Positions 8,316-29,231 of a stretch of DNA of 63,082 nucleotides are shown here, piece after piece. The position numbers and the translations under genes were made by a program. Numbering within the stretch: the stretch's first letter is position 1; the number at the start of each line of letters is the position of its first letter. The stretch is from positions 1 through 63,082 of the forward strand of contig JAANAU010000020.1 of NCBI GenBank assembly GCA_011089965.1, written 5' to 3'. The DNA is from Magnetococcales bacterium (GTDB lineage Bacteria > Pseudomonadota > Magnetococcia > Magnetococcales > Magnetaquicoccaceae). The notes beneath the pieces were generated by a model. It was given only the letters and a program-made list of their open reading frames with translations, had not been told where the DNA came from and ran no database searches.

Positions 8316-9724
8316 GCGCAGATCCCCTTTCATGCGGGGCGAGCGACAGGATGGATAAAAAGGGGGTGTACAGTCGGAAGGATTTATTTCCGTCTCAATC
8401 CCCTTTCAAGCGGGGCGATTACTTTGGGGGGCAGTGGATTGCTCCGATGGATCTACTCCTCCACTACGTGTCTCAATCCCCTTTCAAGCAGGGGCGATTA
8501 CTTTGGGCTTGGAAAAAGAGTTGAGCCGCTTGATCTCTGGAGATTTTGTCTCAATCCCCTTTCAAGCGGGGCGATTACTTTGGGAGGCTCTATTCGATAT
8601 CCTGAATCTGGCTCGAAAGGCCAAGTCTCAATCCCCTTTCAAGCGGGGCGATTACTTTGGGGCCGCCAATGCCGCAGCCTATGCCGCAGCCAGTGCCGAA
8701 GGTCTCAATCCCCTTTCAAGCGTGGCGATTACTTTGGGAGTATCGGGCGCGCAATTGGATCTGGAAAAACAGATATGTCTCAATCCCCTTTCAAGCGGGG
8801 CGATTACTTTGGGTGAGTAAAAATCCTTAGCTGGATCAAGGATTTCATTTGTCTCAATCCCCTTTCAAGCGGGACGATTACTTTGGGGATTTCCTCGCGG
8901 CATCGTTCGATGCAGAGTACACAAGTCTCAATCCCCTTTCAAGCGGGGCGATTACTTTGGGGATCTCGGATTGCAAGCATTTATTTCAGGAGCTTGCCTG
9001 CTCGTCTCAATCCCCTTTCAAGCGGGGCGATTACTTTGGGCATCTCTGGCGGCAACACAAGCCTCCTTCAATTCCTCTGTCTCAATCCCCTTTCAAGCGG
9101 GGCGATTACTTTGGGGATGGTCAGTCAGTGGCTGAACAAGCACTACACCCCGAGTCTCAATCCCCTTTCAAGCGGGGCGATTACTTTGGGACACAAATTG
9201 CGGAAGTAATTCAGAACCATACATTAAATGGAGTCTCAATCCCCTTTCAAGCGGGGCGATTACTTTGGGATACAGACTTTATGAGAGATGGAGAAGAGCC
9301 GGTAGCGTCTCAATCCCCTTTCAAGCGGGGCGATTACTTTGGGGCAACCTATGCCGCAGCCCGTACCGCAGCCGATGCCGCAAGTCTCAATCCCCTTTCA
9401 AGCGGGGCGATTACTTTGGGAAGAGGAAAACGAGATAAAATGGTAAACGAATCAAGCAAGTCTCAATCCCCTTTCAAGCGGGGCGATTACTTTGGGAAAA
9501 TGAAGGAGCAGCAGTACACGCTGACGCTGTTCGAGTCTCAATCCCCTTTCAAGCGGGGCGATTACTTTGGGTACATCTTACTTGCTGAAAGATGGTGACG
9601 TTAAAAATGGTCTCAATCCCCTTTCAAGCGGGGCGATTACTTTGGGTAAATGAAAAGAGGCGTGCTTTGGAACGCCAGAGGGCAGAGGTCTCAATCCCCT
9701 TTCAAGCGGGGCGATTACTTTGGG
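8316..9724 (-). CRISPR. CRISPR array, 18 repeats plus one degenerate terminal repeat, type III-A associated
   Basis: A 37-bp repeat, on the plus strand starting GTCTCAATCCCC and ending GATTACTTTGGG, begins at 8392, 8470, 8548, 8625, 8702, 8777, 8851, 8925, 9004, 9079, 9154, 9233, 9307, 9384, 9460, 9535, 9610 and 9688. Spacers are 37-42 nt. Read on the minus strand the repeat ends in ATTGAGAC, the usual 8-nt 5' crRNA handle of type III systems. This puts transcription leftward and the leader at the right, next to cas2. Variant repeats cluster at the left (distal) end: a one-base insertion at 8470-8507, a substitution in 8702-8738, another in 8851-8887, and a strongly degenerate repeat at 8316-8352 in correct register. 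That gradient supports the orientation. Confidence 0.97.
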
Positions 9725-9912
9725 AGACACCTGTCGAATTTCATGATTTTGCACACTTTTCTGAACTTTTTTTCGTAACCTGTCAAATTCCTCTCCTCTT
9801 GTCAATCATTTTACACCCGTTCAGAAGAGATTACCATGAATCCGATTGATATACAAGGAAATCGTTTGATTCGTAACCTCCCCTGCTTTTTGCTGGTCTG
9901 ACTGGTTACGAC
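9725..9912 (-). promoter_or_regulatory. CRISPR leader with candidate promoter
   Basis: This AT-rich, non-coding 188 nt lies between the cas2 stop and the first (rightmost) repeat. On the minus strand it contains TTGTAT (9851-9856) and TAATCT (9828-9833) separated by 17 nt, a plausible sigma-70 promoter pointing into the array. It also has two TTTGACA/ATTGACA-like motifs further in. The location beside cas1-cas2 and the intact neighbouring repeats fit a functional leader; the promoter call is inference. Confidence 0.6.
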
Positions 9913-12598: not shown

Positions 12599-13549
12599 TC
12601 AATTCCAATACAAACGATAATGTCCCAACCCGAATGTGGCGTTCTTGCCCACATGCAGCCACTGTCCCAAATAAAGAAACGGCCAGAACGGCTCCAAAGG
12701 GCCAGTCAGATTCCACGCGCCCACAACGCCCCCCAGGGCCATGGTCTGCTGCTGACGACCCGAACGTCTGGTCCAATCGCGCCATGTCAACCGACCGCGC
12801 GCATCGATCAAACGGGCCTGTTGCGCCAGATCGGCATAATTTGCGCTGATCTGCCGCTGCCCGTGCAACTCCATCACCTGACTGACACGACGCATCAGGT
12901 TCACCAGCAGATCACGGGGGGTGATGCGCTCTGGACCCAACGGCGAGCCATCCCGCTGCACCCGTGCCGGGGTGATGATCTGCATGGTCACTACGGATGG
13001 TTCAGGCCAGGGTGGCACCTGAACACAAGGAAAATGTTCGATCAGACTTAACCCCTCCGGGTTGAAAATCTCCCGCTCCCCCTGAGACTCGACCAAAACC
13101 ACCCGAATCAAACGCGCCTTGCCGTGATCCGGCCCCACCCCGCGCGCCAAGGCACGCTGCCAGGCAAACACAATCAGGGACAACTGGGCCAAGGCCTTGC
13201 CCACCAGCACCATGTGAAACACCAACGGCTCCCCGGGTTGATGGATCCGCTCCCCCCACGGGGGCGGCTCGATCACATAGGGGTTGGGCACCACAGCCTG
13301 CATCCGCTCCCCTGTTGCCGACACCGGAACCGGTGTCTCAAACATCAACGGATACGGACAACTGCGCCACAACCCACACCCCGGACACTCCGGCTCTCCA
13401 GTCAAACAGACCACTCGGCGCAAGGCTGCTCCAAACACCCCACGCAACGCCGATCCCGCATACTCCGGCAGCCGCATCCGGGTCTCCATTTCCCACTCCA
13501 AACGATAGCGGGCCACAGGCAGCGAGAGGATCTCCGACCCACCACTCAT
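12599..13549 (-). CDS. cas6: CRISPR pre-crRNA processing endoribonuclease Cas6
   Basis: This 316-residue RAMP protein resembles the PF10040 Cas6 group. RLPEYAGSALRGVFGAALRR (27-46) is the typical first RAMP segment. A Cys-rich ECPGCGLWRSCPYP follows, and the C-terminal glycine-rich loop reads HVGKNATFGLGHYRLYW. It would cut the repeat transcript 8 nt upstream of each spacer, leaving the ATTGAGAC handle seen in the array. Its ATG overlaps the csm5 stop (ATGA). The four cysteines suggest a metal-binding knuckle, which is inference. Confidence 0.88.
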   Translation of the reverse strand: MSGGSEILSLPVARYRLEWEMETRMRLPEYAGSALRGVFGAALRRVVCLTGEPECPGCGLWRSCPYPLMFETPVPVSATGERMQAVVPNPYVIEPPPWGERIHQPGEPLVFHMVLVGKALAQLSLIVFAWQRALARGVGPDHGKARLIRVVLVESQGEREIFNPEGLSLIEHFPCVQVPPWPEPSVVTMQIITPARVQRDGSPLGPERITPRDLLVNLMRRVSQVMELHGQRQISANYADLAQQARLIDARGRLTWRDWTRRSGRQQQTMALGGVVGAWNLTGPLEPFWPFLYLGQWLHVGKNATFGLGHYRLYWN

Positions 13550-15069
13550 GACAAGGTCTCACGCAAAGGATCAAGCAGCGCCTTTTTCTTCTTTTCATCC
13601 AGTCCCTTGTTGATTTTTTTCCACAAATCGCGCTCACACAATGCAATGAGTTGATTCTTCTCCTCCGCACTCCACGCGGAGGATCGGGCATCATCCACCA
13701 CTTTTTTTGTCTTATTCCATAATGTATTGGCAAACGGTTGAGGTGACGATTTCTCAATCAGCTGCCGCAACTCCTCGATGCGACGCTGATTGGGAGACAA
13801 AGCGGCCAGACGTGCCACACGCTCTTGCTCCAACGCATCAGCCTGCGCTTGATCTGCAAGACGCTGCTCTTCTTTTCTTTGTTCCTGCAATCTTTTTTGT
13901 TCTAATTCATTTCGATTGAAAGCTATTTTATCTTTCAACACTTTTTTATAATTATTATAGTCAAAACACTGACGATCCCAATCATCAACATTTATATTAA
14001 TTTGATGGCATATTGAATTGATTGTTGTTTGCAATTCGGTTATTCTTAATTCTTCCCCATCTGGATAAAACTCAACAAAAACCCAACCAAACGGTACCAA
14101 CTGACCACCAGAAATCCGACAAAGTGTAGTAGACAGAGGATCTTTTGTATTATATTTTGTTCTTATTCTTCTTATCTTTTGTATGGATTGCGTATCTGCT
14201 CCTGAATGTTTTCCAATTCGCAACAATATACCAGACTTATTCTCAATAGCGGTATAAATCCGATGCGCAAAATGATCAGCCCACCAAGGTTCTTTCATCG
14301 CTTTTAACATATCGATTTGCCGATCAAGAATGCTTTTGTAATACTTGTTACATTGATCAATAAATCTATCTTCAAACACAAACCCATCAAGAATAGTGAT
14401 CTTTCCATTCATCCATCTCGATTGAAATGGATATAAACACTCTGCAAGAAAATTACGCCCATCTTTTACTGTCGTTTCTGTACCATCCTTTCTATGCCTG
14501 CTATGTCTTGTCATAATGCAAGTTGTTTTTCCAGACCAACCCAATGCCACATGCGCATCCCCTATCTTTAACTTGGTTAGAGGGTCATTTTCAAATGCAC
14601 CATTCATCAAATCTCTTTCAGGTTCACCAGGAGCAATATTTTCCTTGTCTTCCGCCAAAGAATTCAATATCGCTGTCCTTATTGAACCTTTTACAGAAGA
14701 TCCAGGAAGAATCGGCTGATTTGAATAATGATCATATATCATTCTTTCAATCCGACCATTTTGTTTTTTATGGTGAAGGTAAGCGAATTCGGTCATCGGT
14801 ATCATCCTCTCAGACACATACGGCAACTCCTTCAACTCCTTATAAAATTCTACCAAACCGGACAACGAATCATCACGAGAGGCTATTTCTCGTAGTCGAT
14901 TTCGCTGTTGATCATTTATGATATCATTTATAGATAACACAGAAAATGGATAGAGATATTTATCCCGAACAACATACTCAACCGGGATAAAATCCTCTCC
15001 AGCACCAATAAGGATTGGAGACAAGGTCGAAATCACATAATTCAACTGCTTCATGAACGGTTTACCCAT
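13546..15069 (-). CDS. csm5: Type III-A RAMP protein Csm5, unusually long
   Basis: The protein caps the crRNA 3' side of the Csm complex. The RAMP signature LPGSSVKGSIRTAIL near residue 120, and LSPILIGAGEDFIPVEY near the N-terminus, identify Csm5. I use the ATG at 15069 (MGKPFMKQL), 7 nt after GGAG and overlapping the csm4 stop; ATGs at 15072 and 15054 are also possible. At 507 residues it is longer than the roughly 350-400 usual. The extra C-terminal part is a charged coiled coil (QEQRKEEQRLADQAQADALE) followed by a helical tail rich in Lys. The central 13.9-15.0 kb is clearly AT-richer than the flanking cas genes. Confidence 0.88.
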   Translation of the reverse strand: MGKPFMKQLNYVISTLSPILIGAGEDFIPVEYVVRDKYLYPFSVLSINDIINDQQRNRLREIASRDDSLSGLVEFYKELKELPYVSERMIPMTEFAYLHHKKQNGRIERMIYDHYSNQPILPGSSVKGSIRTAILNSLAEDKENIAPGEPERDLMNGAFENDPLTKLKIGDAHVALGWSGKTTCIMTRHSRHRKDGTETTVKDGRNFLAECLYPFQSRWMNGKITILDGFVFEDRFIDQCNKYYKSILDRQIDMLKAMKEPWWADHFAHRIYTAIENKSGILLRIGKHSGADTQSIQKIRRIRTKYNTKDPLSTTLCRISGGQLVPFGWVFVEFYPDGEELRITELQTTINSICHQININVDDWDRQCFDYNNYKKVLKDKIAFNRNELEQKRLQEQRKEEQRLADQAQADALEQERVARLAALSPNQRRIEELRQLIEKSSPQPFANTLWNKTKKVVDDARSSAWSAEEKNQLIALCERDLWKKINKGLDEKKKKALLDPLRETLS

Positions 15070-16006
15070 CATAAAACTCCCTATCCACACAAAGTCCAAC
15101 CACAGGCGCATAACCTTGAGTTACCGTTTCCGGCATCATTTTTGAAATTTTTGAAATTCCTTGTCCAACACAAGACATCTCTACAAAAGACGACGATGGA
15201 ACCAACACCGCCCCGGCACGCGCCAGGAGCACCGGCTGTTTGAACGGCCTGCCTTGAATGGCCGCCACATCCCCATGACGCCCAAACCGGGTCAATACCG
15301 AATAACAACTGCGCTCCGGATCCAATCCGCACCCTTGCGGGGCACAAAATCCCAGGGTCAACCAGGCCGTACTGTTCTTCTGATTGGGCAACTCCGCTGG
15401 CTCCAGCTTCTCCACCACGAACTTGCCGATCCCGGTACTGGCATCCTTGCCAAATCCGCTGCGCCCCACATCCTCCAGCGCAGTGCGCAACTCCGCTTCA
15501 TCCAACCGGTCCGGATCCACGACCAGCCAGATCTCCAAACGGGCATCCGGCGGAAACCAGGTCTGATCGACTTGAAACGGGGCAAAACCCTCTTTGCCCG
15601 TGGTTCCGGTCAGCCGGTTGATGCTGTTGTGGGGTTGAGGAGCGATCTTCCGGTCGCTCTTCCAGATCTCTTCTTCACTCTGGCACAACGAAAGCCACGC
15701 TTTCAGATCCAGGTGAACTTTGTCACGGGGCAACCAGATCTTTTTCTTCTCGGCCTTGCGATCCACAGAGGATGGCTTCGTGCGCACAGGGGGCAGAAAC
15801 GGTCGCGGCCAATATCCGGCAGGAAACCAGTCCGACACCACCAAAAAGGGGGCATTCTGGCCAACATAGCCCTGCAACCGTTCTGCAAGCCAGTCGTCCC
15901 CGTAACGATTGCGCAAGCTCCAACAGAGCTGACCAAACAGGGTGTCCCCATGCGGCGGCGTGGCAAACGCCGTCTGCGGGAGAATGGTGGCAAGCATCGT
16001 CTTCAT
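15062..16006 (-). CDS. csm4: Type III-A RAMP protein Csm4
   Basis: At 314 residues this matches Csm4. It has an N-terminal HGDTLFGQLCWSLRNRYG (RAMP fold), a mid-protein GRSGFGKDASTGIGKF glycine-rich loop, and a C-terminal QGYAPVVGLCVD. Csm4 binds the crRNA 5' handle and Cas10 at the base of the Csm complex. Its 3' end overlaps csm5 by 8 nt and csm3 ends 13 nt upstream. The gene has the GC content of the rest of the operon. Confidence 0.93.
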   Translation of the reverse strand: MKTMLATILPQTAFATPPHGDTLFGQLCWSLRNRYGDDWLAERLQGYVGQNAPFLVVSDWFPAGYWPRPFLPPVRTKPSSVDRKAEKKKIWLPRDKVHLDLKAWLSLCQSEEEIWKSDRKIAPQPHNSINRLTGTTGKEGFAPFQVDQTWFPPDARLEIWLVVDPDRLDEAELRTALEDVGRSGFGKDASTGIGKFVVEKLEPAELPNQKNSTAWLTLGFCAPQGCGLDPERSCYSVLTRFGRHGDVAAIQGRPFKQPVLLARAGAVLVPSSSFVEMSCVGQGISKISKMMPETVTQGYAPVVGLCVDREFYDG

Positions 16007-16019
16007 GGATCATCCATCC

Positions 16020-16727
16020 TCACCACGGTTTGGCCTCTTCCAACTTCTGCTGCCACTCTCCCTGAAGCTCGAACCGGATGCGGCCATACCCCCGCGATCC
16101 GGAACCACCCAATGCATCCATCTCCAAGAGTTTCAGACCGACCCACAGGGTTTCGAGCAATTTTTCCTCACCGTCCATGTCCAACACCTTGACAGACAAG
16201 GCAAACTCAAAACACGCACCCGCCGGCACCCGCTCCACGTTGCGAGGATGCTCGGCCACTCCGCGCACCCGATTAATGGTGTTTTCCATCTTGGTCTCGG
16301 TCAGAGAGAGATTTTTTGTCCGAATCTTCTCGACCCAATCCCGTTCCAACCGGCAATCCCGAAAGGCGACACGGCTGGGACCGATCTCTTTGGCCTGATC
16401 ATCATTCAATTGATCGGAAACCCCGAAAAGTCGCAAAATCCGTAACGCCTCTGACCGATCCGGGGCTTTGTCCAATTGGCCATAACCCATCGGCTTGCCA
16501 CCGTTGACCCCTGCCAACCCGGCCTGCCACTCAAGCAAAGAGCGGATCTTCCCTTTCAGGCTGCTGCCCGGGATGTAGGGTTCGTTCGTATGCGGATGAC
16601 GGATCACCGGATTGTCCGATCCGCCGATGTGCATCTCGGCATTCCCGCTGCCGATGTGCAGGCCGGTGAGCAATCGAATTTGGCCGGTAATCTCTTTGAT
16701 TCCGGTCAGCCTGAGAGGATGATTCAT
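16020..16727 (-). CDS. csm3: Type III-A backbone RNase Csm3
   Basis: This 235-residue protein has the Csm3 signatures LLTGLHIGSGNAEMHIGGSDN, YIPGSSLKGKIRSLLEW and GGSGSRGYGRI. Asp38 in HIGGSDN aligns with the catalytic Asp33 of Streptococcus thermophilus Csm3, so periodic cleavage of target RNA should be intact. The ATG overlaps the stop of hepT (ATGA). Expression of this essential backbone subunit is therefore translationally coupled to the toxin gene upstream. Confidence 0.95.
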   Translation of the reverse strand: MNHPLRLTGIKEITGQIRLLTGLHIGSGNAEMHIGGSDNPVIRHPHTNEPYIPGSSLKGKIRSLLEWQAGLAGVNGGKPMGYGQLDKAPDRSEALRILRLFGVSDQLNDDQAKEIGPSRVAFRDCRLERDWVEKIRTKNLSLTETKMENTINRVRGVAEHPRNVERVPAGACFEFALSVKVLDMDGEEKLLETLWVGLKLLEMDALGGSGSRGYGRIRFELQGEWQQKLEEAKPW

Positions 16728-17101
16728 GACTCCAATCTCTCCTGAATATCTGAATGGTTGGGACGTTCCAGTTCGTCCAGTATCCGTTGCAGTTGTGGAA
16801 TCAAAGCGGGAATTTCATCCACCGCCGTTTTCCAAACCGTCCCCAAATCTACCGAAAAATAGGCATGAACCAAGACATTCCTCATGCCTGTCATGTCTGA
16901 CCACGGAACCGCTTCATGTTTCCTTCTCAATGACACAGGCATTCTGGCGGCAGCCTCGCCAATGACGGTCAATTGGTGCAAAACGGCGCTTTGCACCAAC
17001 TCATCCTGGCAAAATTGATCCAATGTCGTGAGACTCACATAACGGACCACTGCCTGGGCTGCTGCGATCATGTCATGCAGATACAAAACCTCACTGCGCA
17101 T
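16724..17101 (-). CDS. hepT: HEPN-family toxin HepT (DUF86)
   Basis: The 125-residue helical protein contains RNVLVHAYF (74-82), the R-x4-H-x-Y motif of HepT toxins. Arg74 and His79 form the RNase site, and Tyr81 is the residue that MntA adenylylates in characterised pairs. It overlaps the 3' end of the mntA gene by 11 nt and the csm3 start by 4 nt. HepT/MntA pairs are normally free-standing loci, so their presence between csm2 and csm3 is unusual. Function as an RNase toxin follows from family; a CRISPR role is inference. Confidence 0.9.
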   Translation of the reverse strand: MRSEVLYLHDMIAAAQAVVRYVSLTTLDQFCQDELVQSAVLHQLTVIGEAAARMPVSLRRKHEAVPWSDMTGMRNVLVHAYFSVDLGTVWKTAVDEIPALIPQLQRILDELERPNHSDIQERLES

Positions 17102-17396
17102 GGATCACCTGCGCGCTGGCCAAAACCGCATCGCGAATGGCAGGCTTCAACCACTCTCTGGGCACCAGATCCACGGGACGGGCACACAAATCCGCCAACT
17201 CCTGCTGCATCCTGGCCATGGCCAGCAAGCCAAACGCACGCTCCTCTTCAAACTCCACCAACCAGTCAATATCGCTCTCAGACGAAAAATCCGTCCTCAA
17301 TATCGATCCGAACACCGAAAGCCGCCGGACTCCCCAACGCCGACACCACGCGCTCAGAGAAGAATCGGATATTTCGAGATGGTCGTTGAAACGCAT
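17091..17396 (-). CDS. mntA: MntA-type minimal nucleotidyltransferase antitoxin
   Basis: This 101-residue protein has the minimal nucleotidyltransferase core VFGSILRTDFSSESDIDWLVEF, with Gly30-Ser31 and the catalytic Asp42/Asp44. Members of this family neutralise HepT by adding AMP to the Tyr of its R-x4-H-x-Y motif. A ribosome binding site (AGGAGC) overlaps the csm2 stop codon 8 nt before its ATG, so translation is tied to the cas operon. A conserved PVDLVPREWLKP tail matches the family. Confidence 0.9.
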   Translation of the reverse strand: MRFNDHLEISDSSLSAWCRRWGVRRLSVFGSILRTDFSSESDIDWLVEFEEERAFGLLAMARMQQELADLCARPVDLVPREWLKPAIRDAVLASAQVIHAQ

Positions 17397-17407
17397 CGTT
17401 CCCGCTC

Positions 17408-17791
17408 CTAATCTTTTGGCCGGATCTGCTTGTAGAACCCCATGACCGCTTCCATGAACAGTTTGAAGTGTTTCATGGAGTCGGGATCATTGACCTCTTT
17501 CAGACAACCCCGCATCAGATCAACAAAATATTTATCCACCAACTGCGGATTTCTGCCATTGGCATAAGCGGCCTTGGCATTGAGCATACGAATAAATGGA
17601 AGCAACTCCTTGAATCGATCCTCCGGTTTTGGATCTTCATTCACACGCTCGTTCCACATACAGATCTCGTCGTAAAATCTGCGGATCTGCGATGGCTTGT
17701 TGGTTCTTTGTTCTTGACTCAACCGGGTGGCAACCTGTTGGGCTTGCGCATCAAAAAGATCAGGGACAGGATTTTTGAAATCAAACATCAC
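17408..17791 (-). CDS. csm2: Type III-A small subunit Csm2
   Basis: At 127 residues this all-helical basic protein matches Csm2: QIRRFYDEICMWNERV, RFKELLPFIRMLNAKAAYANGR and HFKLFMEAVMGFYKQIRP. Csm2 lines the inner filament of the Csm complex alongside Csm3. Its start overlaps the cas10 stop (ATGA). Csm2 together with Csm5, rather than Cmr5 and Cmr1, defines the locus as subtype III-A. Confidence 0.93.
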   Translation of the reverse strand: MMFDFKNPVPDLFDAQAQQVATRLSQEQRTNKPSQIRRFYDEICMWNERVNEDPKPEDRFKELLPFIRMLNAKAAYANGRNPQLVDKYFVDLMRGCLKEVNDPDSMKHFKLFMEAVMGFYKQIRPKD

Positions 17792-20283
17792 TTTGACACC
17801 TCCCGACGTTTATAGAGATATGCAAACAGGGCAATCTTGTATTTTTCTTTGTACTGACTGATCTTGCCCCCAATTCCGACGGCAAAGTCCTTTCGGTAGA
17901 TCTCTTGGCGCTGTTCCTCTCTGTCCACCTGACGCAGCTTGTCCACGACAAAACGCCAGGTGCGATAGGTGAACCAGGAACGCCAGATCGCATCTTCCGG
18001 TATGTCGCTGCCCGCCATCTCGCACAAGCGCAGCAGTCCATACAGATAGGCCGTGCTCAACTCCACATCATGTTGAGTACTCAAACCTTCCGACACGTCG
18101 TGCAACTCCTTTTCCGCATCCAGCATCTTCCCAAAGGTGTGCCAGTCAACGGTCTGTTTCCAACAGGTGATCGACTTTTTGCCCGGATTCTTCTTGGCGC
18201 CATGCAGGGCGGCTTCGGCCAACCCGACCAGAGCCGGAACCGGAATACCGGGTTTGGTCATGGCCACTCCGGCGGAAAAATGGACCTCCGGATTGTTGCC
18301 CACATAGCGTTGGAACTCCTGCTGCATCTCCCTGGCCAGCCGCATCTGCGACCACCACGGCCCCACCAGGAAAAAATCATCCCCGCCCGCAAACACCGTA
18401 TAGGTATCCGGAAACTTCCGGGCACAGTGCCAGGCCAAACCGGTCGTGAAAAAGGCGTTCAATTGCCGACTCAAGGAGGCCATGCGGGCAAAGGTCGGCT
18501 CCTGCAAGCCATCCTTGAACAGAGTGCCCAGATCATCCACATCCCCTTTGAGAATCCCCAAAGCCGCGACTCCACGGCGCGTTCCCTTGGCATCCTCCAC
18601 CACACCCAGGCCAGCGATCTCTTCAAAGGTGCGGATCTCCCCACGCTCTTTGGGCACATGTCCGTTGATCTCCCGGCGGGCACGGCCATTCCACAACGGA
18701 GCGCGACCATCTTGCGCCGGGGCCAGATCCCATGCCCGCACCACAAACCCCACATCCTCATCCCCAAAACCGATCCGATAACCCAGCCATTCCACCCCAC
18801 CCTTGCCGCCTTTGCCAATGCGCAAGAGCCTCTCCTTGACCAGTTTGTCACCGATCTCAAGCTGTGCTGCGCAACGCGCGCATTTCTCATCCTTCATGGC
18901 CGGGGCCTGACCGCAACGGGAACAGACCCCGTGCGCATAATCATGATCAAACACCATCACATCACAGAGGCCGCACAGATCAAAACGCCGCCGTTTGCGG
19001 CGATCCAGATCACGAAACAATCTTTCCATCAATTCTTTGAACGGCTGTGTCTGAAAATCGCTCCGTCTGGCGCGGGTGCTGGCCAGAACGATTCCTCCCT
19101 GTCCGAACGCATGGGTCAAAAACCATGGATCCAATTCCCGACGAATCCGCTCCAACCGCGCTTCGGCATCCGGCAGACAGGGGGCCACAATCAGGAACTT
19201 GCCCGCAGCATTGATGATCTGACTGATCCCTGGCAACTCGAACGCCTCCAGAACCTTCAAGGCCGCCAACTCGGTCAACAGCGACACCTCGAACGAGCGT
19301 CCCCGCAACATCTTGGCCGCCCCTTTGTCGCTCGCGCCGCCTCCGGAAAAGATGAACTCCTGGATTCCGCAAAAATCCCCCTGAACCAACAAGAATTCCG
19401 GCGTCTCCACCCGGTCCCAGTGCCCCTGCCAGCCTGCCTCGGCAAACCCTTCGGCCACAGAACCCAACGCCTCATGATGACGCCACAAGGCCACCGCCAG
19501 CGAGGCCGTGGCCTTGGAGTGGTCATACAAAGAGACATTCGGCGGAATTTGCTTGAATCCTTCCGGTCCGCGCGTCACCGTGGCCGACGGAATGGCATGG
19601 GTAAAAGTCAGATACAACGAATCGAAATGATCCAACCACAAGGGCCATTGATCATCCTGCCACCTTGGCGATCTTTCCAGCCTTTCCAACCCCTGTAAAA
19701 ACTTTGTCCACAGAGCCTGATACTCCTTTTTGGCCTCGGCATCCGGGATCTCCGTCCTTGAAACAGGGTACAAAAACTCCGGGGCCAAAGGGTGCAAAGG
19801 AAGACGATGGTTCGGTTCATGATTCTGTTTCAAAGTTTCCAGCAATGGCCACAATCGCACCTGCCGATAATTGGCCTTTCGCACCCCCTCGTCCTCACCG
19901 GCCCGGTTGTAGCGGTCGAAACTCTCCCGCTCAAAGCCGGATGCCAGGCGATCCGCCGTGGCAATGATCCGTTGCAACGGGGTTTCCGGCTTGTGATGCA
20001 TGGCCGCACCATTGATCACCGAGTCCCGGTCCTCGAACGGCGTCATGCCCGTCCCCTTGAGCGGCGGAAGAAAAATCTTCTCCATCGCATCGATGGCCAT
20101 GCCGGTATAAGCGGCATGCTGATGCGAATGACGCCCCTCCCAGGAGGGACAATAGGTGGCCACATTCCCGAGTTTTTCGGGTGGCACCTCTCCGGTGCGT
20201 TCAAAGAACTTGCCCACATCGTGCACCAAAGCGGCAAATCCCACCCGGCAGGAGGCGGCCAACAACTGCGCGCGACTATCCAT
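17788..20283 (-). CDS. cas10: Type III-A effector subunit Cas10/Csm1
   Basis: The 831-residue protein has an N-terminal HD nuclease domain (LVHDVGKFFERTGE, His21-Asp22, with AMHHKPETP near 95). A zinc-finger-like segment follows at about 437-463 (CGLC...CSRCGQ...CARC). The palm cyclase carries LKGDVDDLG near 579 and the GGDD motif at 633-636 in FAGGDDFFLVG. HD cuts single-stranded DNA at transcribed targets, and GGDD makes cyclic oligoadenylates. Both active sites look intact. It overlaps the upstream CARF gene by 8 nt. Two CARF proteins in the operon are natural receivers of its signal. Confidence 0.97.
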   Translation of the reverse strand: MDSRAQLLAASCRVGFAALVHDVGKFFERTGEVPPEKLGNVATYCPSWEGRHSHQHAAYTGMAIDAMEKIFLPPLKGTGMTPFEDRDSVINGAAMHHKPETPLQRIIATADRLASGFERESFDRYNRAGEDEGVRKANYRQVRLWPLLETLKQNHEPNHRLPLHPLAPEFLYPVSRTEIPDAEAKKEYQALWTKFLQGLERLERSPRWQDDQWPLWLDHFDSLYLTFTHAIPSATVTRGPEGFKQIPPNVSLYDHSKATASLAVALWRHHEALGSVAEGFAEAGWQGHWDRVETPEFLLVQGDFCGIQEFIFSGGGASDKGAAKMLRGRSFEVSLLTELAALKVLEAFELPGISQIINAAGKFLIVAPCLPDAEARLERIRRELDPWFLTHAFGQGGIVLASTRARRSDFQTQPFKELMERLFRDLDRRKRRRFDLCGLCDVMVFDHDYAHGVCSRCGQAPAMKDEKCARCAAQLEIGDKLVKERLLRIGKGGKGGVEWLGYRIGFGDEDVGFVVRAWDLAPAQDGRAPLWNGRARREINGHVPKERGEIRTFEEIAGLGVVEDAKGTRRGVAALGILKGDVDDLGTLFKDGLQEPTFARMASLSRQLNAFFTTGLAWHCARKFPDTYTVFAGGDDFFLVGPWWSQMRLAREMQQEFQRYVGNNPEVHFSAGVAMTKPGIPVPALVGLAEAALHGAKKNPGKKSITCWKQTVDWHTFGKMLDAEKELHDVSEGLSTQHDVELSTAYLYGLLRLCEMAGSDIPEDAIWRSWFTYRTWRFVVDKLRQVDREEQRQEIYRKDFAVGIGGKISQYKEKYKIALFAYLYKRREVSK

Positions 20284-21409
20284 TATGCAAATCCTCTTCG
20301 ATGATGATGTATTCCGGATCCAACATCAGACCATACGCACATCCCCCGCGCTGACGGCGCGATTGCACCCGGCCAGGATGGGAAACTCCCAACAGGCTCT
20401 TGATCTTGGAGACGGAATGGCCGATCTTTTCACTGAATTCCGCATAACTGACCCCGCCGTTCCGCTCCCTGGGCACCCACCCCTGCTCCCGATGATGGCA
20501 ACGGATCCGGGCATAAACCCCATCCAACCGGGTCACATAAATCTCCTGATCCAACTCCCGACGGGCAATCCATCCCTCCTCACCCAACCCCTCCAGACGA
20601 CAACCGGCAAAAAAAAGCACCACCGCAAACTCACGGGGCGGCAGGATCACCTCGGCACCGTGATGACGTACCGTACAGGTTCTCACATGCAGCACCACTT
20701 TTGGATCCAGACTCTCCACCTCCCGTTGCACCCGGCCACGCGCATGCTCCAACGGAATGACACCGCGCCGGGTCTCTTCATCCAGCAAGGAGCGCAAACG
20801 CACCACAGGAATCTCCACCATCTCCAGATGTGCTGCCGAGCTGTCCAGAAAAATCACCCCATGCCCGGCCCGATGCACGGCCAAAGGCTGCGGAGTGACG
20901 GGTGGATAAAAAAATTCCGCCAGATTTTCAAACGGCGGCGACACCAGCAAATGGACCAGACGATCCTCGGAACGGGCCAGCAATCCAAACACCTGGGCAA
21001 ACAACACGGTCATATCCTTGCGACCGCCAGCCACACACGCCACCACCGGCAGGCTCCCCTCCTGACACCAACCGGCCAGAGACTCGAACAAACCATCGGG
21101 CATGGCGCTCTCCAACTGCCCATCTTCCCTGCGTCCGCGCCAGAACCGGTGCAGATCCTCCAGACCAAAGCCAATCTCCGCACGCGCCAACCCATACTCC
21201 CGACACAAACGATCCAACGGGGTCTCTGCACCCACCAGCAAGGCATTGCGCGCCGCATCGGCCCCCTCGGGGGTGGTCAATACCGAAATCCGTCTCACCT
21301 GGCGACCCTCACGCACCATCAGAAGATACAACGCCTCGGTAATCACCTGGGGCGTCAATCCCACCAGCACCACCAGATGACACGCCTTGCTGTTGACAGT
21401 TTTTCTCAT
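20276..21409 (-). CDS. CARF protein of the TIGR02584/Cas_NE0113 group with C-terminal HTH-like region
   Basis: The first gene of the cas operon encodes 377 residues. Residues 10-210 form a CARF domain: VVLVGLTPQVITEALYLL, ISVLTTPEGADAARNALL and VACVAGGRKDM, the last being the ligand-loop motif of the Cas_NE0113 family, members of which are annotated as CRISPR ring nucleases. Residues about 255-345 look like a winged-helix module (LPPREFAVVLFFAGCRL, then YAEFSEKIGHSVSKIKSLLG). It could therefore bind or degrade cyclic oligoadenylate, bind DNA, or both. No HEPN motif is present. Promoter-proximal position suggests a sensor or off-switch; that is inference. Confidence 0.75.
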   Translation of the reverse strand: MRKTVNSKACHLVVLVGLTPQVITEALYLLMVREGRQVRRISVLTTPEGADAARNALLVGAETPLDRLCREYGLARAEIGFGLEDLHRFWRGRREDGQLESAMPDGLFESLAGWCQEGSLPVVACVAGGRKDMTVLFAQVFGLLARSEDRLVHLLVSPPFENLAEFFYPPVTPQPLAVHRAGHGVIFLDSSAAHLEMVEIPVVRLRSLLDEETRRGVIPLEHARGRVQREVESLDPKVVLHVRTCTVRHHGAEVILPPREFAVVLFFAGCRLEGLGEEGWIARRELDQEIYVTRLDGVYARIRCHHREQGWVPRERNGGVSYAEFSEKIGHSVSKIKSLLGVSHPGRVQSRRQRGGCAYGLMLDPEYIIIEEDLHNG

Positions 21410-24222: not shown

Positions 24223-24699
24223 TCACTTCTTCTCTTCGGCTTTGGCTTCGGGAGCAGCCGGCGGCGCACCCCAGGCCGGAGCACCCCAACCCGGAGCACC
24301 CCAACCCGGAGCACCCCAACCCGGTCCGCCATAACCATAACCCGGTCCACCCCAACCCGGACCATAGCCATAACCCGGTCCACCCCAACCATTGTTCCAG
24401 CCGTTGTTCCAGCCGTTGTAGTTGTTCCAGTTGTTGTTGCCATAACCGTTGCCGGAACCGGCGACATCGCCACCCATGTTGAAGCCGAAATTGCCCGATG
24501 CACGGCCATCGCCACGGCCATTGCCCAGCCAGTTGTTGCCCCAGTTGTTGTTCCAGTCGTTCCAGTTGTTGTTGTTGCCCCAACCACCCGGTCCACCCCA
24601 ACCCGGTCCACCCCACCAGGCCGAAGCATCACCAGCAGAGATCATGGCCGCACCACCCAGCAGGGTGGCCAATGCCAACACACGCAGACCTTTATTCAT
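24223..24699 (-). CDS. Secreted Gly/Asn/Trp-rich protein, sulfur-globule-protein-like
   Basis: The start ATG at 24699 follows AGGAGG by 8 nt. The 158-residue product has a clean signal peptide (MNKGLRVLALATLLGGAAMISAGDASA). The mature part is almost wholly Gly, Asn, Trp, Pro and Tyr: NNNNWNDWNNNWGNNW, then GPGYGYGPGWGGPGYGYGG, then GWGAP repeats, ending in a charged EAKAEEKK tail. Composition and size resemble the structural coat proteins of periplasmic sulfur globules in sulfur oxidisers. It could alternatively be another glycine-rich envelope protein. No sox or dsr genes are in the window to support the sulfur role. Its own terminator follows. Confidence 0.6.
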   Translation of the reverse strand: MNKGLRVLALATLLGGAAMISAGDASAWWGGPGWGGPGGWGNNNNWNDWNNNWGNNWLGNGRGDGRASGNFGFNMGGDVAGSGNGYGNNNWNNYNGWNNGWNNGWGGPGYGYGPGWGGPGYGYGGPGWGAPGWGAPGWGAPAWGAPPAAPEAKAEEKK

Positions 24700-24967
24700 T
24701 GTCTTTCCTCCTCGTTAAGTTTCAGTACACTATGATAACCAACCCAGGACGAAGCCTGTGGAAAAACGGGCACCGGTCATTCTCCCCATGACTCTTGAAT
24801 CCTCCCGCATCTTAAGCAATCTACTCCAAACCCCTTTTCGGTGTAAATTAAAAAAATGCACAACAGAGAGACCTTGACTCGGGAACCAATTCCATCCTGA
24901 CAATGTCAACAGGAAGTTTGTCACGCACGTCAGTTCCGGTTTGACTTTATTATCCAACGGAGTTCGT

Positions 24968-27121
24968 ATGACCAGGAGCAAGAGACACCCATCCCGAATC
25001 AGCCCGTGGGATGGGAGCGCATGGATGGGCCTGTTGTGGATCTTGACCCTGTGTCTGCCCAGCCCGGTTCTGGCCCGGGAGTTCGGGGCCTACGAGGTGC
25101 CGGTGCAACCTGCCGACGTCTTTCCGGATGCCGACCGCTTCGACCCTTTGAACGGAGCGCCCGCCATGGGTACGGCGTACAAACAGGACAAACCTGTCGG
25201 TCATATTTTTCTCACCAGTGATATCGGCTACTCCGGCAAGCCGATTGAGGTTCTGGGCGGAATGAACCGGGAGGGCATCGTCACCGGGGCCAAGGTGATC
25301 AAGCATGCCGAGCCGATCCTGTTGATCGGCATTCCGGAACAGAAACTCTTTGATTTTGTCCATCGTTATGTGGGTCGCAACCCGCTCAAGGAGGCTGAAG
25401 CGGGTGCCAGACAGGCCATCGACGCCATCAGCGGCGCCACGGTCACAGCCATCGTGATCAACGATGGCATCCATCGTGCAGCCCGCAAGATCGCACGCGG
25501 CGGCCAGGCCGAAGCTCCGGTTGCCAAATCCACCCTGCTCGATCCGCCGTTCAAACCCAAAGCCTGGAACGAGATGCTCGGCGAAGGAACCGTGCGTCGT
25601 CTGACCTTGAATCACGGCGAGGTGGATGCGGCCTTTCACAAGATCGGTGCCGGCAGCGGGGAGCCGTACATCAAGGTCATGCCGCCCCAGGAACTCTTCA
25701 TCGATCTGCATGTCGCCCTGGTCACACCTGCGGAAATCGGTCAGAACCTTCTGGGTGCGGCAGAATACGCCAATCTCAAGGAGTGGCTCGCCCCCAATCA
25801 ACAGGCACTGCTGATCATGGCCAACGGGACGTATTCATTCCGGGGGTCGGGCTTTGTGCGCGGCGGCATTTTCGACCGTTTCAAGATCAATCAGGACGGC
25901 AACGGCATTCTGCTCCACGACTACCAGTATCGCCGCATGCGCGATCTGGGAGCGGGCATGCCGGAGTTCGAGGAGATCGGTCTGTTCAAAATGCCTGAAG
26001 GCGGCCTCTTCGATCCCACCCGGAGCTGGTCCATGGAGCTTCTGGCCCAGCGTCCCATCGGCCCCATCGAAAAGACCTTCACCAGTTTTTCACTCTCCTA
26101 CACCCTGCCCGAACGGTTCCTCCAACGGCCTGCTCCGGTTGTTGTTCCACCTGCCGCCCAGACCCAAACCGCCAGCCAGGCCGACGACCCGGAGAGCGGG
26201 CCGCCTTTGTGGCAACGCATGTGGCAGGACAAAATGGGCGATATCATTGTCCTGTCGGTCTCGCTGATCCTATTGACCCTGATCTTTTTCTTTCAGGAAC
26301 TGCTGATCACCCATCCCCGCCTCGTCACCAATATCCGCCGCGCCTTTCTGCTGTTTTCTCTGATCTGGATCGGCGGTTATGCCCAGGCCCAGCTTTCGGT
26401 GGTCAATGTTCTGACCTTCCTGCACGCCTTGATGGGGAATTTCCGCTGGGAGTTCTTCCTGATCGAGCCGTTGATTTTCATCCTGTGGAGCGCCACGGCT
26501 CTTTCTTTGATCTTCTGGGGTCGGGGAGCCTTTTGCGGCTGGCTCTGCCCGTTCGGTGCATTGACCGAACTGCTCAATCTGGTGGCTCAAAAGTTCAAGG
26601 TGCCCCAGATCCGCATCCCCTTTGCCTGGCATGAGCGGTTATGGGCATTCAAGTATGTGTTGTTCATGGGACTGTTGGCCATCTCGCTTTCGTCCATGGC
26701 CACTGCCGAAATGCTGGCCGAGATCGAGCCGTTCAAAACCGTCGTGCTGCTGCGTTTTGATCGGGAGTGGCCGTATGTGTTGTGGGCCGTGGGTCTGCTG
26801 GGGGTCGGCCTGTTCATCGAGCGGTTCTTCTGCCGCTATTTATGCCCGTTGGGGGCAGCCATCGCCATCCCGGGACGCATGCGGGTCTTTGCCTGGCTCA
26901 AGAGACGACGCCAGTGCGGGGATCTCTGTTCCAACTGCGGCAACGAGTGTGGGGTTCAGGCGATCCAACCCAATGGGGAGATCCACCCGAATGAGTGCAT
27001 CTACTGCCTGCACTGCCAGTTGAACTATGTCAACGAAGCGGTCTGTCCAACCTTGATCATGCGCAAAACCCGCCGCGAACGCCGCGCCTCGGCCAGCAAG
27101 GAAGAGTCTCCCTCCGTGTGA
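24968..27121 (+). CDS. nosR: NosR, membrane FMN/iron-sulfur protein for N2O respiration
   Basis: The ATG at 24968 follows ACGGAG by 5 nt. The 717-residue protein has a signal sequence ending SPVLARE and a periplasmic FMN-binding domain (AISGATVTAIVINDGI, where the Thr in SGAT carries covalent flavin). Transmembrane helices begin near residue 420. Cytoplasmic polyferredoxin motifs follow: CGWLCPFGAL, CRYLCPLGAAI, CSNCGNECGVQ and CIYCLHCQLNY. NosR passes electrons from the quinol pool toward NosZ and is needed for its maturation and activity. It is first in the nos cluster; the next gene is 172 nt downstream across a palindrome-rich gap. Confidence 0.95.
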   Translation: MTRSKRHPSRISPWDGSAWMGLLWILTLCLPSPVLAREFGAYEVPVQPADVFPDADRFDPLNGAPAMGTAYKQDKPVGHIFLTSDIGYSGKPIEVLGGMNREGIVTGAKVIKHAEPILLIGIPEQKLFDFVHRYVGRNPLKEAEAGARQAIDAISGATVTAIVINDGIHRAARKIARGGQAEAPVAKSTLLDPPFKPKAWNEMLGEGTVRRLTLNHGEVDAAFHKIGAGSGEPYIKVMPPQELFIDLHVALVTPAEIGQNLLGAAEYANLKEWLAPNQQALLIMANGTYSFRGSGFVRGGIFDRFKINQDGNGILLHDYQYRRMRDLGAGMPEFEEIGLFKMPEGGLFDPTRSWSMELLAQRPIGPIEKTFTSFSLSYTLPERFLQRPAPVVVPPAAQTQTASQADDPESGPPLWQRMWQDKMGDIIVLSVSLILLTLIFFFQELLITHPRLVTNIRRAFLLFSLIWIGGYAQAQLSVVNVLTFLHALMGNFRWEFFLIEPLIFILWSATALSLIFWGRGAFCGWLCPFGALTELLNLVAQKFKVPQIRIPFAWHERLWAFKYVLFMGLLAISLSSMATAEMLAEIEPFKTVVLLRFDREWPYVLWAVGLLGVGLFIERFFCRYLCPLGAAIAIPGRMRVFAWLKRRRQCGDLCSNCGNECGVQAIQPNGEIHPNECIYCLHCQLNYVNEAVCPTLIMRKTRRERRASASKEESPSV

Positions 27122-27129
27122 ATGAAATG

Positions 27130-27167
27130 TTCCATTCGGAATTGATCTTCATCAATTCCGAATGGAA
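27130..27167 (+). promoter_or_regulatory. Perfect FNR/NNR-type site nested in a 17-bp hairpin
   Basis: TTGAT-CTTC-ATCAA at 27142-27155 matches the FNR/Anr/Dnr consensus perfectly. It is the centre of a larger perfect palindrome: a 17-bp arm (27130-27146), a 4-nt loop, and its complement (27151-27167). It sits 8 nt after the nosR stop and 127 nt before nosZ. It may serve both as an oxygen- or NO-responsive operator and as an RNA hairpin at the nosR 3' end. No U-tract follows, so it is not a classic terminator. Confidence 0.75.
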
Positions 27168-27204
27168 AAAACATTGCAATCCCGCCTCTCATGTGTGATA
27201 CCCC

Positions 27205-27243
27205 TGTGTGAAATCACACACCTGCGTCTGTTCAAATGAACAG
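27205..27243 (+). promoter_or_regulatory. Two further inverted repeats and a candidate -10 upstream of nosZ
   Basis: TGTGTGA-AA-TCACACA (27205-27220) and CTGTTCA-AA-TGAACAG (27228-27243) are perfect 7-bp inverted repeats, each with a 2-nt AA centre, lying 7 nt apart. An additional direct TGTGTGA occurs at 27192. TATACAT at 27247-27253 could be a -10 element, which would place the second palindrome in the promoter spacer. The regulator is unknown; half-site spacing is too short for CRP. Confidence 0.5.
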
Positions 27244-27293
27244 GCGTATACATAGGATCGTTCCCATTTTTACTCTGATCAGGAGAGAAGACC

Positions 27294-29231
27294 ATGGCCG
27301 AAAATGAGAAACAGGGCGTAACGCGTCGTGACTTGCTGGAGACCGGTTTCAAGGTGGCCACTGTAGGTGGGCTGACTGGCATGGCCTGTCGGGCCGGGGT
27401 TGTTGGCGGAGGCGCCTTGGCCGCCGCAGCAGCCACCATGCCTGGAACCGCAGCGGCTGCGGGCAAGGCGGATGTGCCTCCGGGGCAGTTGGATGAATAT
27501 TACGGTTTCTGGAGCGGTGGTCACTCTGGTGAAGTGCGCGTTTTGGGTCTGCCTTCCATGCGCGAATTGATGCGCATTCCGGTCTTCAATCGTGAGAGTG
27601 CGACCGGTTGGGGTTTGACCAACGAAAGCCTGATGATTCTCTCCGAAGGTCTGACCCCGGAGACCAAAGAGTATTTGAAAAAACAGGGCAAAGTCACCTT
27701 TGATCACGGCGACACCCACCATCCGCGCATGTCCTATACCGATGGCTCCTATGACGGGCGTTATCTCTATATCAATGACAAATCCAACACCCGCATTGCC
27801 CGGATTCGCTGCGACATCATGAAGACCGACAAGGTGTTGGAGATCCCCAATGCCCATGCCATTCACGGTCTGCGTCTGCAACGTTATCCCAAGACCGGCT
27901 ATGTCTTTTGCAACAGCGAAATGCGTCTGCCCATTCCCAACACCCCGGCCACGATGAAGGATCCGAAAAAGTATGTCGGAATGTTCAATGCCGTGGATGG
28001 CGAAACCATGAAAATGGCTTGGCAGGTCAAAATCAGCGGCAACCTGGACAACTGTGATGCCGACTACAAGGGCAAATATGCCATCTCCACCTGCTACAAC
28101 TCCGAAGAAGGATTCACCACAGCGGAAATGACCGCAGCTCCGGCTGACCATGTGGTGATCTTCAACATTGCCGCCATCGAAGAGGCCGTCAAGTCCGGCA
28201 AGGCAGAAATGATCAACGGCGTGCCGGTGGTGGATGGTCGCAAAGAGGCCAAATCCCAGTTCACCCGTTACATCCCCATTGCCAGCAATCCCCACGATGC
28301 CAATGCTGCCCCGGATGGCAAATATGTGATCGTGAGCGGCAAGCTTTCGCCCACGGTGTATGTCATTGCCTGGGACAAGGTGGATGAGTTGTTTGCCGGT
28401 AAAATCGCTGAAAAGGATGTGATCATCGCCAATCCGGAAATCGGTCTGGGTCCGCTGCACACCACGTTTGACGGACGGGGCAATGCCTACACGTCGGTCT
28501 TTCTGGACAGTCAGATCGTCAAGTGGAATATTGAGGATGCCATCAAGCAGTACAAGGGCGAAAAGGTCAATCCGGTGCGCCAGAAGCTGGATGTCCACTA
28601 TCAGGTTGGGCACACCAATGCGTCCATGGCCGAATCCAAGGATGCGGATGGCAAGTGGCTGGTGGCTTTGTGCAAATTCTCCAAGGATCGTTTCCTCAAT
28701 GTCGGCCCGTTGAAGCCGGAAAATGATCAGTTGATCGACATCTCCGGGGATGAGATGAAGCTGGTGCATGATGGTCCGACCTTCCCGGAGCCGCATGATG
28801 CCATCATCGTCCACAAATCCAAGGTCAAGCCGGTTGAAGTCTACAACAAAAACGACCCGCTGTTTGCCGCTCTGAATGCCCAGGCCAAGAAGGACAATGT
28901 GGAGTTGGGCAAAGACAGCAAGGTGATCCGCGAGGGTGCCAACAAGGTACGTGTTTACATGGTCAGCCACGCCCCGACCTTCAGCATGACCGAGTTCACG
29001 GTCAAGCAGGGGGATGAAGTGACGGTCATCGTGACCAATGTGGATGAAGTGGTGGATCTGACCCATGGTCTGACCGTGGTGGGACACAACGTCTGCTTTG
29101 AAGTGGGTCCGCAAGCCACGGCCTCTGCCACCTTCCGTGCGGATCGTCCTGGTGTTCACTACTACTATTGCCAATGGTTCTGCCACGCCTTGCACATGGA
29201 GATGCAGGGACGGATGTTTGTCGAGGCCTGA
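27294..29231 (+). CDS. nosZ: Nitrous oxide reductase NosZ (TAT-exported, clade I type)
   Basis: The ATG at 27294 follows AGGAGAG. The 645-residue precursor starts with a twin-arginine signal (VTRRDLLETGFKVATVGG). The beta-propeller contains CuZ ligands in HGDTHHPRMSYTDG and further His motifs. The C-terminal cupredoxin has the complete CuA motif CQWFCHALHMEM, with Cys626, Cys630, His634 and Met637. The enzyme reduces N2O to N2 in the periplasm, using electrons from cytochromes. The TAT signal points to clade I, which fits the nosR-Z-D-F-Y-L order. All catalytic motifs look intact. Confidence 0.97.
   Translation: MAENEKQGVTRRDLLETGFKVATVGGLTGMACRAGVVGGGALAAAAATMPGTAAAAGKADVPPGQLDEYYGFWSGGHSGEVRVLGLPSMRELMRIPVFNRESATGWGLTNESLMILSEGLTPETKEYLKKQGKVTFDHGDTHHPRMSYTDGSYDGRYLYINDKSNTRIARIRCDIMKTDKVLEIPNAHAIHGLRLQRYPKTGYVFCNSEMRLPIPNTPATMKDPKKYVGMFNAVDGETMKMAWQVKISGNLDNCDADYKGKYAISTCYNSEEGFTTAEMTAAPADHVVIFNIAAIEEAVKSGKAEMINGVPVVDGRKEAKSQFTRYIPIASNPHDANAAPDGKYVIVSGKLSPTVYVIAWDKVDELFAGKIAEKDVIIANPEIGLGPLHTTFDGRGNAYTSVFLDSQIVKWNIEDAIKQYKGEKVNPVRQKLDVHYQVGHTNASMAESKDADGKWLVALCKFSKDRFLNVGPLKPENDQLIDISGDEMKLVHDGPTFPEPHDAIIVHKSKVKPVEVYNKNDPLFAALNAQAKKDNVELGKDSKVIREGANKVRVYMVSHAPTFSMTEFTVKQGDEVTVIVTNVDEVVDLTHGLTVVGHNVCFEVGPQATASATFRADRPGVHYYYCQWFCHALHMEMQGRMFVEA

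Follow-up and report, generated by a model that had tools for sequence, protein, structure and literature searches.

Organization of the nosR-nosZ spacer

How can nosZ be controlled separately from nosR, the gene directly upstream of it? The question is raised by a 172-nt spacer in a Magnetococcales genome, in which a first-pass annotation, made from the DNA letters alone, had noted three stacked palindromes. A lack of copper is known to limit the reduction of N2O, a greenhouse gas, and hence to affect its release, and the link between nosZ transcription and copper is poorly understood. Here we analyzed the window, a 63,082-nt stretch from one contig of this genome, together with relatives that are MAGs of the same order, including Ca. 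Magnetaquicoccus inordinatus UR-1, which is reported to have nosZ and no norBC (PMC6783814). All compared genomes are uncultured or draft. An alignment was made of the sequence upstream of nosZ from about 20 relatives.

The features of the locus are collected in Table 1. The nosR product matches the NCBIfam model TransRegNosR with an E value of 2e-237, yet it falls under that model's curated cut-off. On the 3' side of nosZ lie nosD and then ABC-transporter genes at the nosFY position. A search upstream of nosR for an FNR box, a UAS and a sigma54 box found none. Divergent from nosR, at 24223-24699 on the minus strand, is the gene for a small secreted protein with a very high content of Gly, Trp and Asn (WGGPGWGGPG, NNNWNDWNNN). 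In two loci of a sister genus (L125 and L126), a peptidoglycan-binding-like ORF lies between nosR and nosZ.

Re-reading the sequence placed three exact palindromes in the spacer where they had been annotated, at 27130-27167, 27205-27220 and 27228-27243, with an FNR site at the center of the 17-bp hairpin. To gauge chance, the spacer was shuffled 4,000 times with its dinucleotides preserved. An inverted repeat whose arms reached at least 12 bp arose in a fraction of 0.0005 of the shuffles, one perfect 7-2-7 palindrome in 0.021 and two in 0.00025. Since a single 7-2-7 palindrome is expected in 2% of such spacers, the third palindrome would not be remarkable by itself. The whole window contains eight 7-2-7 palindromes, two of which are in this spacer.

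Conservation in relatives, which the first-pass annotation had named as a check on all three motifs, was found for the FNR hairpin and for the second palindrome, TGTGTGAAATCACACA, and not for the third. We are highly confident in this anatomy and its conservation. Taking the whole explanation together, it is fairly probable that nosZ is controlled from this spacer, through two elements that are conserved and one that is local. The three palindromes of the spacer differ in kind. The dense control that had been proposed between the two genes is kept in relatives and might let nosZ be expressed independently of nosR.

Table 1 Features of the nosR-nosZ locus, in window coordinates.
Feature	Position	Strand	Basis or remark
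nosR	24941..27121	+	ATG near 24968 is the likelier start codon
Hairpin of 17 bp with 4-nt loop	27130..27167 (arms 27130-27146/27151-27167)	+	pairing kept by compensatory change
FNR/DNR box TTGATCTTCATCAA at the hairpin top	27142..27155	.	perfect TTGAT-N4-ATCAA
Sigma54-like box TGGAAAAAACATTGCA, overlapping the hairpin 3' end	27163..27178	+	GG-N10-GC, 9/12 consensus positions
Inferred sigma70 promoter	TTGCAA 27174-27179, 17-nt spacer, TGT-GATACC 27194-27202	+	spacing common to six genus loci
Weak UAS-like site TGTGTGATACCCCTGT, overlapping the main UAS	27192..27207	+	matrix score 6.0, about 99.9-99.99th percentile of the window
UAS TGTGTGAAATCACACA (TGTGTGA-AA-TCACACA), predicted site of a receiver-less sigma54 activator	27205..27220	.	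conservation and sigma54 boxes
Stem of 11 bp (two G-U pairs) with AAAU loop, nosZ leader	27225..27249	+	folds as UGCGUCUGUUC/GAACAGGCGUA, z -4.2
nosZ, TAT-dependent (clade I) nitrous-oxide reductase	27294..29231	+	TIGR04244, 1053 bits vs cut-off 625

An FNR box within a conserved RNA hairpin

The FNR/DNR box of the first palindrome is the sole perfect TTGAT-N4-ATCAA match in the window. Nine nosZ loci, from the window genome and eight relatives, share a core of TTGA[TC]-N4-[AG]T[CT]AA that caps an extended dyad. In the flanks of this core, the arms are fully different by genome (ATTCGG/CCGAAT in the window genome; ACATGA/TCATGT, GCATGG/CCATGC and GCCGATA/TATCGGC in others) and their complementarity is kept. 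Across the nine loci, 93.9% of the flanking pair cells are still paired, and 10 of 11 flanking pairs are altered on both sides. The covariation score of the hairpin is 1.008. Shuffles gave 0.273, with 0/500 reaching the score of the hairpin, and sliding gave no more than 0.245. The segment 27122-27182 folds at -26.2 kcal/mol (z -6.9), and several genomes have G-U pairs within the arms, which favors an RNA over a DNA structure. Because the arms change in sequence yet stay paired, the first palindrome is predicted to be an operator and a conserved RNA hairpin at once. Such a fusion offers a clean natural case of one sequence selected for two roles, as an operator in DNA and as a structure in RNA.

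A DNA-level feature, such as an extended operator or a cruciform, could also account for the long dyad: the FNR box is kept in all loci, a symmetric operator retains its symmetry as well, and the window genome has no T-tract directly downstream of the hairpin. This is improbable, however, given arms that vary freely while remaining complementary, with G-U pairs among them. The other FNR boxes of the genome are not extended either; past the core, the dyad continues for 12 bp at nosZ and for 0-2 bp at the 14 other perfect boxes readable in the window's own genome. Elsewhere in the order such extension is rare, with 3 of about 17 non-nos sites reaching at least 6 further pairs in a count by eye. 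Three genomes of the sister genus (L005-L007) have T8 directly 3' of the hairpin, which fits an intrinsic terminator, and in L012 a terminator-like hairpin and an FNR box are adjacent but distinct. It appears from L012 that hairpin and box have merged in the other genomes.

As an RNA hairpin fused with the FNR box at the 3' end of nosR, the first palindrome would end or protect the nosR message. The sister-genus version would be a full intrinsic terminator. In the window genome, which lacks the T-tract, GGAAAAAACATT follows the hairpin on the plus strand and A6 stands in place of the T residues, which makes termination doubtful here; protection of the 3' end is as likely. The earlier proposal that a strong hairpin ends the nosR message therefore holds for the hairpin itself, through its covariation, and termination is clear only in the sister genus with T8. 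A search of Rfam returned no match to a known RNA family. A repeated hairpin element of the REP or MITE kind was rejected, since the extended FNR core is present just twice in the genome.

The reading of the FNR site as an operator is borne out by the perfect box and by two FNR-type regulators, which are the only CRP/FNR proteins in the genome. Their recognition helices are ETVSR and ETFSR (E-T-[VF]-S-R). The ETVSR protein has an FNR-like N-terminal cysteine cluster, and the ETFSR protein, with no cysteines at its N-terminus, is DNR-like. Either could bind the box, which would activate nosZ under low oxygen or NO. Upstream of 66 nosZ loci outside Magnetococcales, the hairpin and the UAS are absent and FNR boxes are rare.

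The second palindrome and a predicted sigma54 regulon

The palindrome at 27205-27220 has one exact copy in the 3.66-Mb genome. At nosZ, TGTGTGAAATCACACA is kept within the family, and about 13 genomes show it at this gene. Exact TGTGTGANNTCACACA occurs in 10 of 48 genomes, and control patterns, including the reversed one, gave zero matches. Every place in which it occurs is upstream of nosZ, or of TonB-dependent receptors, TonB or a TonB-linked operon. The dyad has the form TGT-N10-ACA, and at most TonB loci a degenerate second site lies 21-23 bp from the main one. The weak site TGTGTGATACCCCTGT in the nosZ spacer is 13 bp from the main UAS, as opposed to 21 bp at other loci. In L125-L127, from the sister genus, the terminator/FNR element has a UAS copy on either side; the two copies are about 165-173 bp apart, a spacing that would permit looping.

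Downstream of the UAS, a sigma54 -24/-12 box is found at 21/21 motif-bearing TonB/copper loci, with offsets in helical phase. A GG-N10-G(C) box lies downstream at 12/12 TonB loci (Fisher P about 1e-7), and among loci fetched without regard to the motif, motif and box occur together in 8 of 10, including G027, a closed single-contig genome of another family. The UAS-to-box offsets are 50-53, 61, 73-74 and 84-85 bp, with an 11-bp period (Rayleigh P about 4e-8; 0/400 shuffles reach it). Both P values are optimistic because loci from related genomes are not independent, though the pattern spans several families. A UAS with a phased sigma54 box is the architecture used by enhancer-binding proteins (EBPs), and TGTGTGAAATCACACA is very probably the UAS of such a protein. 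A CRP-type site was rejected for this palindrome, as both CRP/FNR proteins of the genome carry FNR-type helices.

Copper as the common substrate of these receptors is proven by sequence for some of them only. Against TIGR01778 (TonB-copper, cut-off 472), the receptors of G005 and G014 score 713 and 699 bits; that of G013 falls below the cut-off with 120 bits, and several receptors away from nos are not OprC-like. The window's genome has no close homologue. It does have a second UAS target, at C75:46417, where tandem TGTGTC/TGTGGC sites 21 bp apart precede a sigma54 box at +52 and an operon with ABC-transporter and TlpA-like ORFs. This predicted sigma54 operon (L194, G000:C75, 3897-9015) encodes an ABC permease, an ATPase, a membrane protein, a TlpA-like lipoprotein, a small CxxC protein and further ORFs, and is possibly metal-handling. 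An operon behind a UAS in another genome (L133, G036:C19, 4697-8371) encodes a NapH/NosR-like ferredoxin protein, a DsbD-like protein, TonB and a receptor, and resembles a second nos/copper assembly unit. In G027 (L267, 982-997), a weak UAS and sigma54 box precede a TonB receptor-TonB-ExbB operon and no full nosZ-motif locus is present, which suggests that the regulon predates its use at nosZ.

A candidate enhancer-binding protein

The candidate regulator is a 331-aa sigma54 activator with GAFTGA and a Fis HTH and without a receiver domain. Orthologues of it are found in G004, G005, G008, G010, G013, G014, G020, G026 and G036 at 0.1-11 kb from motif-bearing loci, and in G018 at 20 kb from such a locus. 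The usual neighbor of the gene encodes a DsbD_2 membrane protein. The window genome has a 76% identical orthologue (G000:C70:41747-42739, equal to L249:11748-12740), with a Sigma54_activat domain containing GAFTGA, a Fis HTH and no receiver. The FNR gene of this genome is about 9 kb away from it, and an oxidase subunit-like ORF is 5 kb away. The pair of DsbD_2 and receiver-less activator (L249, 11745-13477, minus strand) recurs in most genomes checked, usually near TonB genes.

Neighborhood and promoter class make this EBP the likely binder of the UAS. It would bind TGTGTGAAATCACACA, and its other targets would be the genes for TonB-dependent copper receptors and for TonB, whose sigma54 promoters lie 50-85 bp downstream of the motif. 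The EBP could instead be a mere neighbor, with the UAS-like site serving another repressor of copper uptake. Proximity is not binding, genes for TonB, DsbD_2 and EBP may cluster for other reasons, and the site is palindromic like any dimer operator. Such a coincidence has a low probability, as a sigma54 box in helical phase, the mark of an EBP, accompanies the motif at every motif-bearing TonB locus, and by eye no other regulator gene recurs in these neighborhoods. For the candidate EBP, copper may be the signal, judging by the receptor annotation and the copper need of NosZ.

The site shared with copper-uptake genes suggests that NosZ production is tied to copper supply. With a 16-bp site common to both and a named candidate regulator, this link becomes directly testable.

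The nosZ promoter and the direction of control

Separate control of nosZ, as the first-pass annotation had it, is supported by the conserved FNR box and UAS in the spacer. Six nosZ loci of the genus show a similar spacing of three elements, namely the FNR box, a TTGC/TTGT element and a TGn-extended -10. In the window genome, the FNR box is centered at 27148.5 and the -10 lies at 27197-27202, for a predicted start at about 27209. The box would then sit at about -60 to -63 in the six loci (about -60.5 in the window genome); the positions expected of FNR/DNR operators are about -41.5 or -61.5 relative to a mapped start. The TTGCAA/GATACC hexamers are weak, a promoter scan did not report them, and in part they could represent a degenerate second UAS.

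The predicted FNR-driven start falls inside the UAS, where a bound protein would block RNA polymerase. The distance between UAS and FNR box is 64-68 bp in the six genus loci, 135 in L012 and 32 in L017, whose shorter spacing would again place the UAS over a class II promoter. In L005-L007 the UAS is upstream of the FNR box, and this variable position counts against the main explanation. Across 13 nosZ loci, no conserved sigma54 box accompanies the UAS, and none lies downstream in the window genome. In L004, L008, L009 and L012, only 43-48 nt separate the UAS from the nosZ ATG, too short a distance to accommodate a sigma54 promoter downstream.

The lack of a conserved sigma54 promoter, together with a UAS over the predicted start, favors repression of nosZ. 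We lean towards repression by the EBP, with low to moderate confidence. The EBP would then repress nosZ while turning on copper uptake, forming a copper-sparing switch. A bEBP that acts at sigma70 promoters, also as a repressor, is reported in Caulobacter NtrC, which however lacks GAFTGA (PMC10274813). Tentatively, the full arrangement may be one EBP that switches copper uptake on and nosZ off through a UAS over the sigma70 start, with the FNR operator doubling as the nosR 3' hairpin.

Activation of nosZ by the EBP, through sigma54 or by aiding the FNR promoter, would turn on NosZ and copper supply together, as with NnrR in Brucella, where co-regulation of nosA with denitrification is predicted (PMC1274295). 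The same site occurs at nosZ and at copper-uptake genes, and in the window genome TGGAAAAAACATTGCA (9/12) lies 42 bp upstream of the UAS. That box is absent from relatives, however, and with 0/13 nosZ loci showing a conserved box and four lacking room downstream of the site, we consider activation unlikely.

The third palindrome

The third palindrome, CTGTTCAAATGAACAG (CTGTTCA-AA-TGAACAG at 27228-27243), is single-copy, and the nearest other site in the genome is 2 mismatches away. It is absent from the nosZ upstream regions of relatives, and a leader hairpin after the UAS was seen just in the window genome and L016. We interpret it best as a genome-specific 11-bp leader hairpin, perhaps with a role in mRNA stability.

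An operator is the alternative: the regulator of the second palindrome could bind here again, or the sequence could be a LexA box. The sequence is a perfect 7-2-7 that fits CTGT-N8-ACAG, and its center is 23 bp from that of the UAS, near the 21-23 bp tandem spacing elsewhere. On the UAS matrix, however, it scores like random sequence (18% of window positions score as well), by which a second UAS was rejected. A LexA box was rejected as well, as neither recA nor the LexA-like gene of the window genome has one. With the absence from relatives, and with an RNA form that gains two G-U pairs to reach an 11-bp stem, an operator is quite improbable. The related regulators or dimer of dimers once suggested for the second and third palindromes are not supported. 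The actual partners of the second palindrome appear to be a degenerate site about 21 bp away and the sigma54 activator.

Comparison with known systems

Receiver-less sigma54 EBPs are of the PspF type, and NifA sites have the form TGT-N10-ACA. The candidate EBP resembles PspF as an AAA+ protein with GAFTGA, a Fis HTH and no receiver, and its dyad is NifA-like. Its UAS often has a second site about 21 bp off, and lies 50-85 bp upstream of the -24/-12 box. The partner gene of PspF is PspA, whereas that of the window-genome EBP encodes DsbD_2. Unlike the PspF type, the predicted regulon comprises TonB-dependent (copper) uptake and nosZ, with no conserved sigma54 promoter at nosZ.

In Pseudomonas stutzeri, FNR/DNR-type activators regulate nosZ separately. 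The nos genes are under FixK2/NnrR control in Bradyrhizobium (PMC5582078, PMC6710368) and MgFnr control in Magnetospirillum (PMC4065386). All three resemble the present locus in using a CRP/FNR-family box under low oxygen or NO. In Bradyrhizobium, however, nosR and nosZ overlap as one unit, whereas in the window genome an FNR box lies between them, inside an RNA hairpin. An element with a DNA-level role also serves as a hairpin stem in Neisseria and Pasteurellaceae, where inverted DNA uptake sequences form terminator stems (PMC1852404); those terminators embed an uptake signal, whereas the nosR hairpin embeds the operator of the next gene. Dedicated control of copper receptor genes, linked to respiration or denitrification, is likewise known. 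Bordetella uses the post-transcriptional uORF system CruR-CrtA for its TonB-dependent copper receptor (PMC12914433) and Brucella places nosA under NnrR with predicted denitrification co-regulation (PMC1274295), whereas a sigma54 activator is predicted for Magnetococcales.

Each part is thus of a known kind. In the literature that we searched, which included few subscription journals, neither a sigma54 EBP acting on TonB copper receptors nor a terminator with an embedded FNR box is reported, and what is undescribed there is an FNR operator serving as a nosR 3' hairpin together with the TonB/copper sigma54 UAS at nosZ.

Elsewhere in the window, a CRISPR-like array at 8392-9739 contains 18 repeat copies starting GTCTCAATCCCCTTTCAAGCGGGGCGATTACTTTGGG, with 74-79 nt spacing. 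Possible cas-type ORFs accompany it on the minus strand, at 12599-21409.
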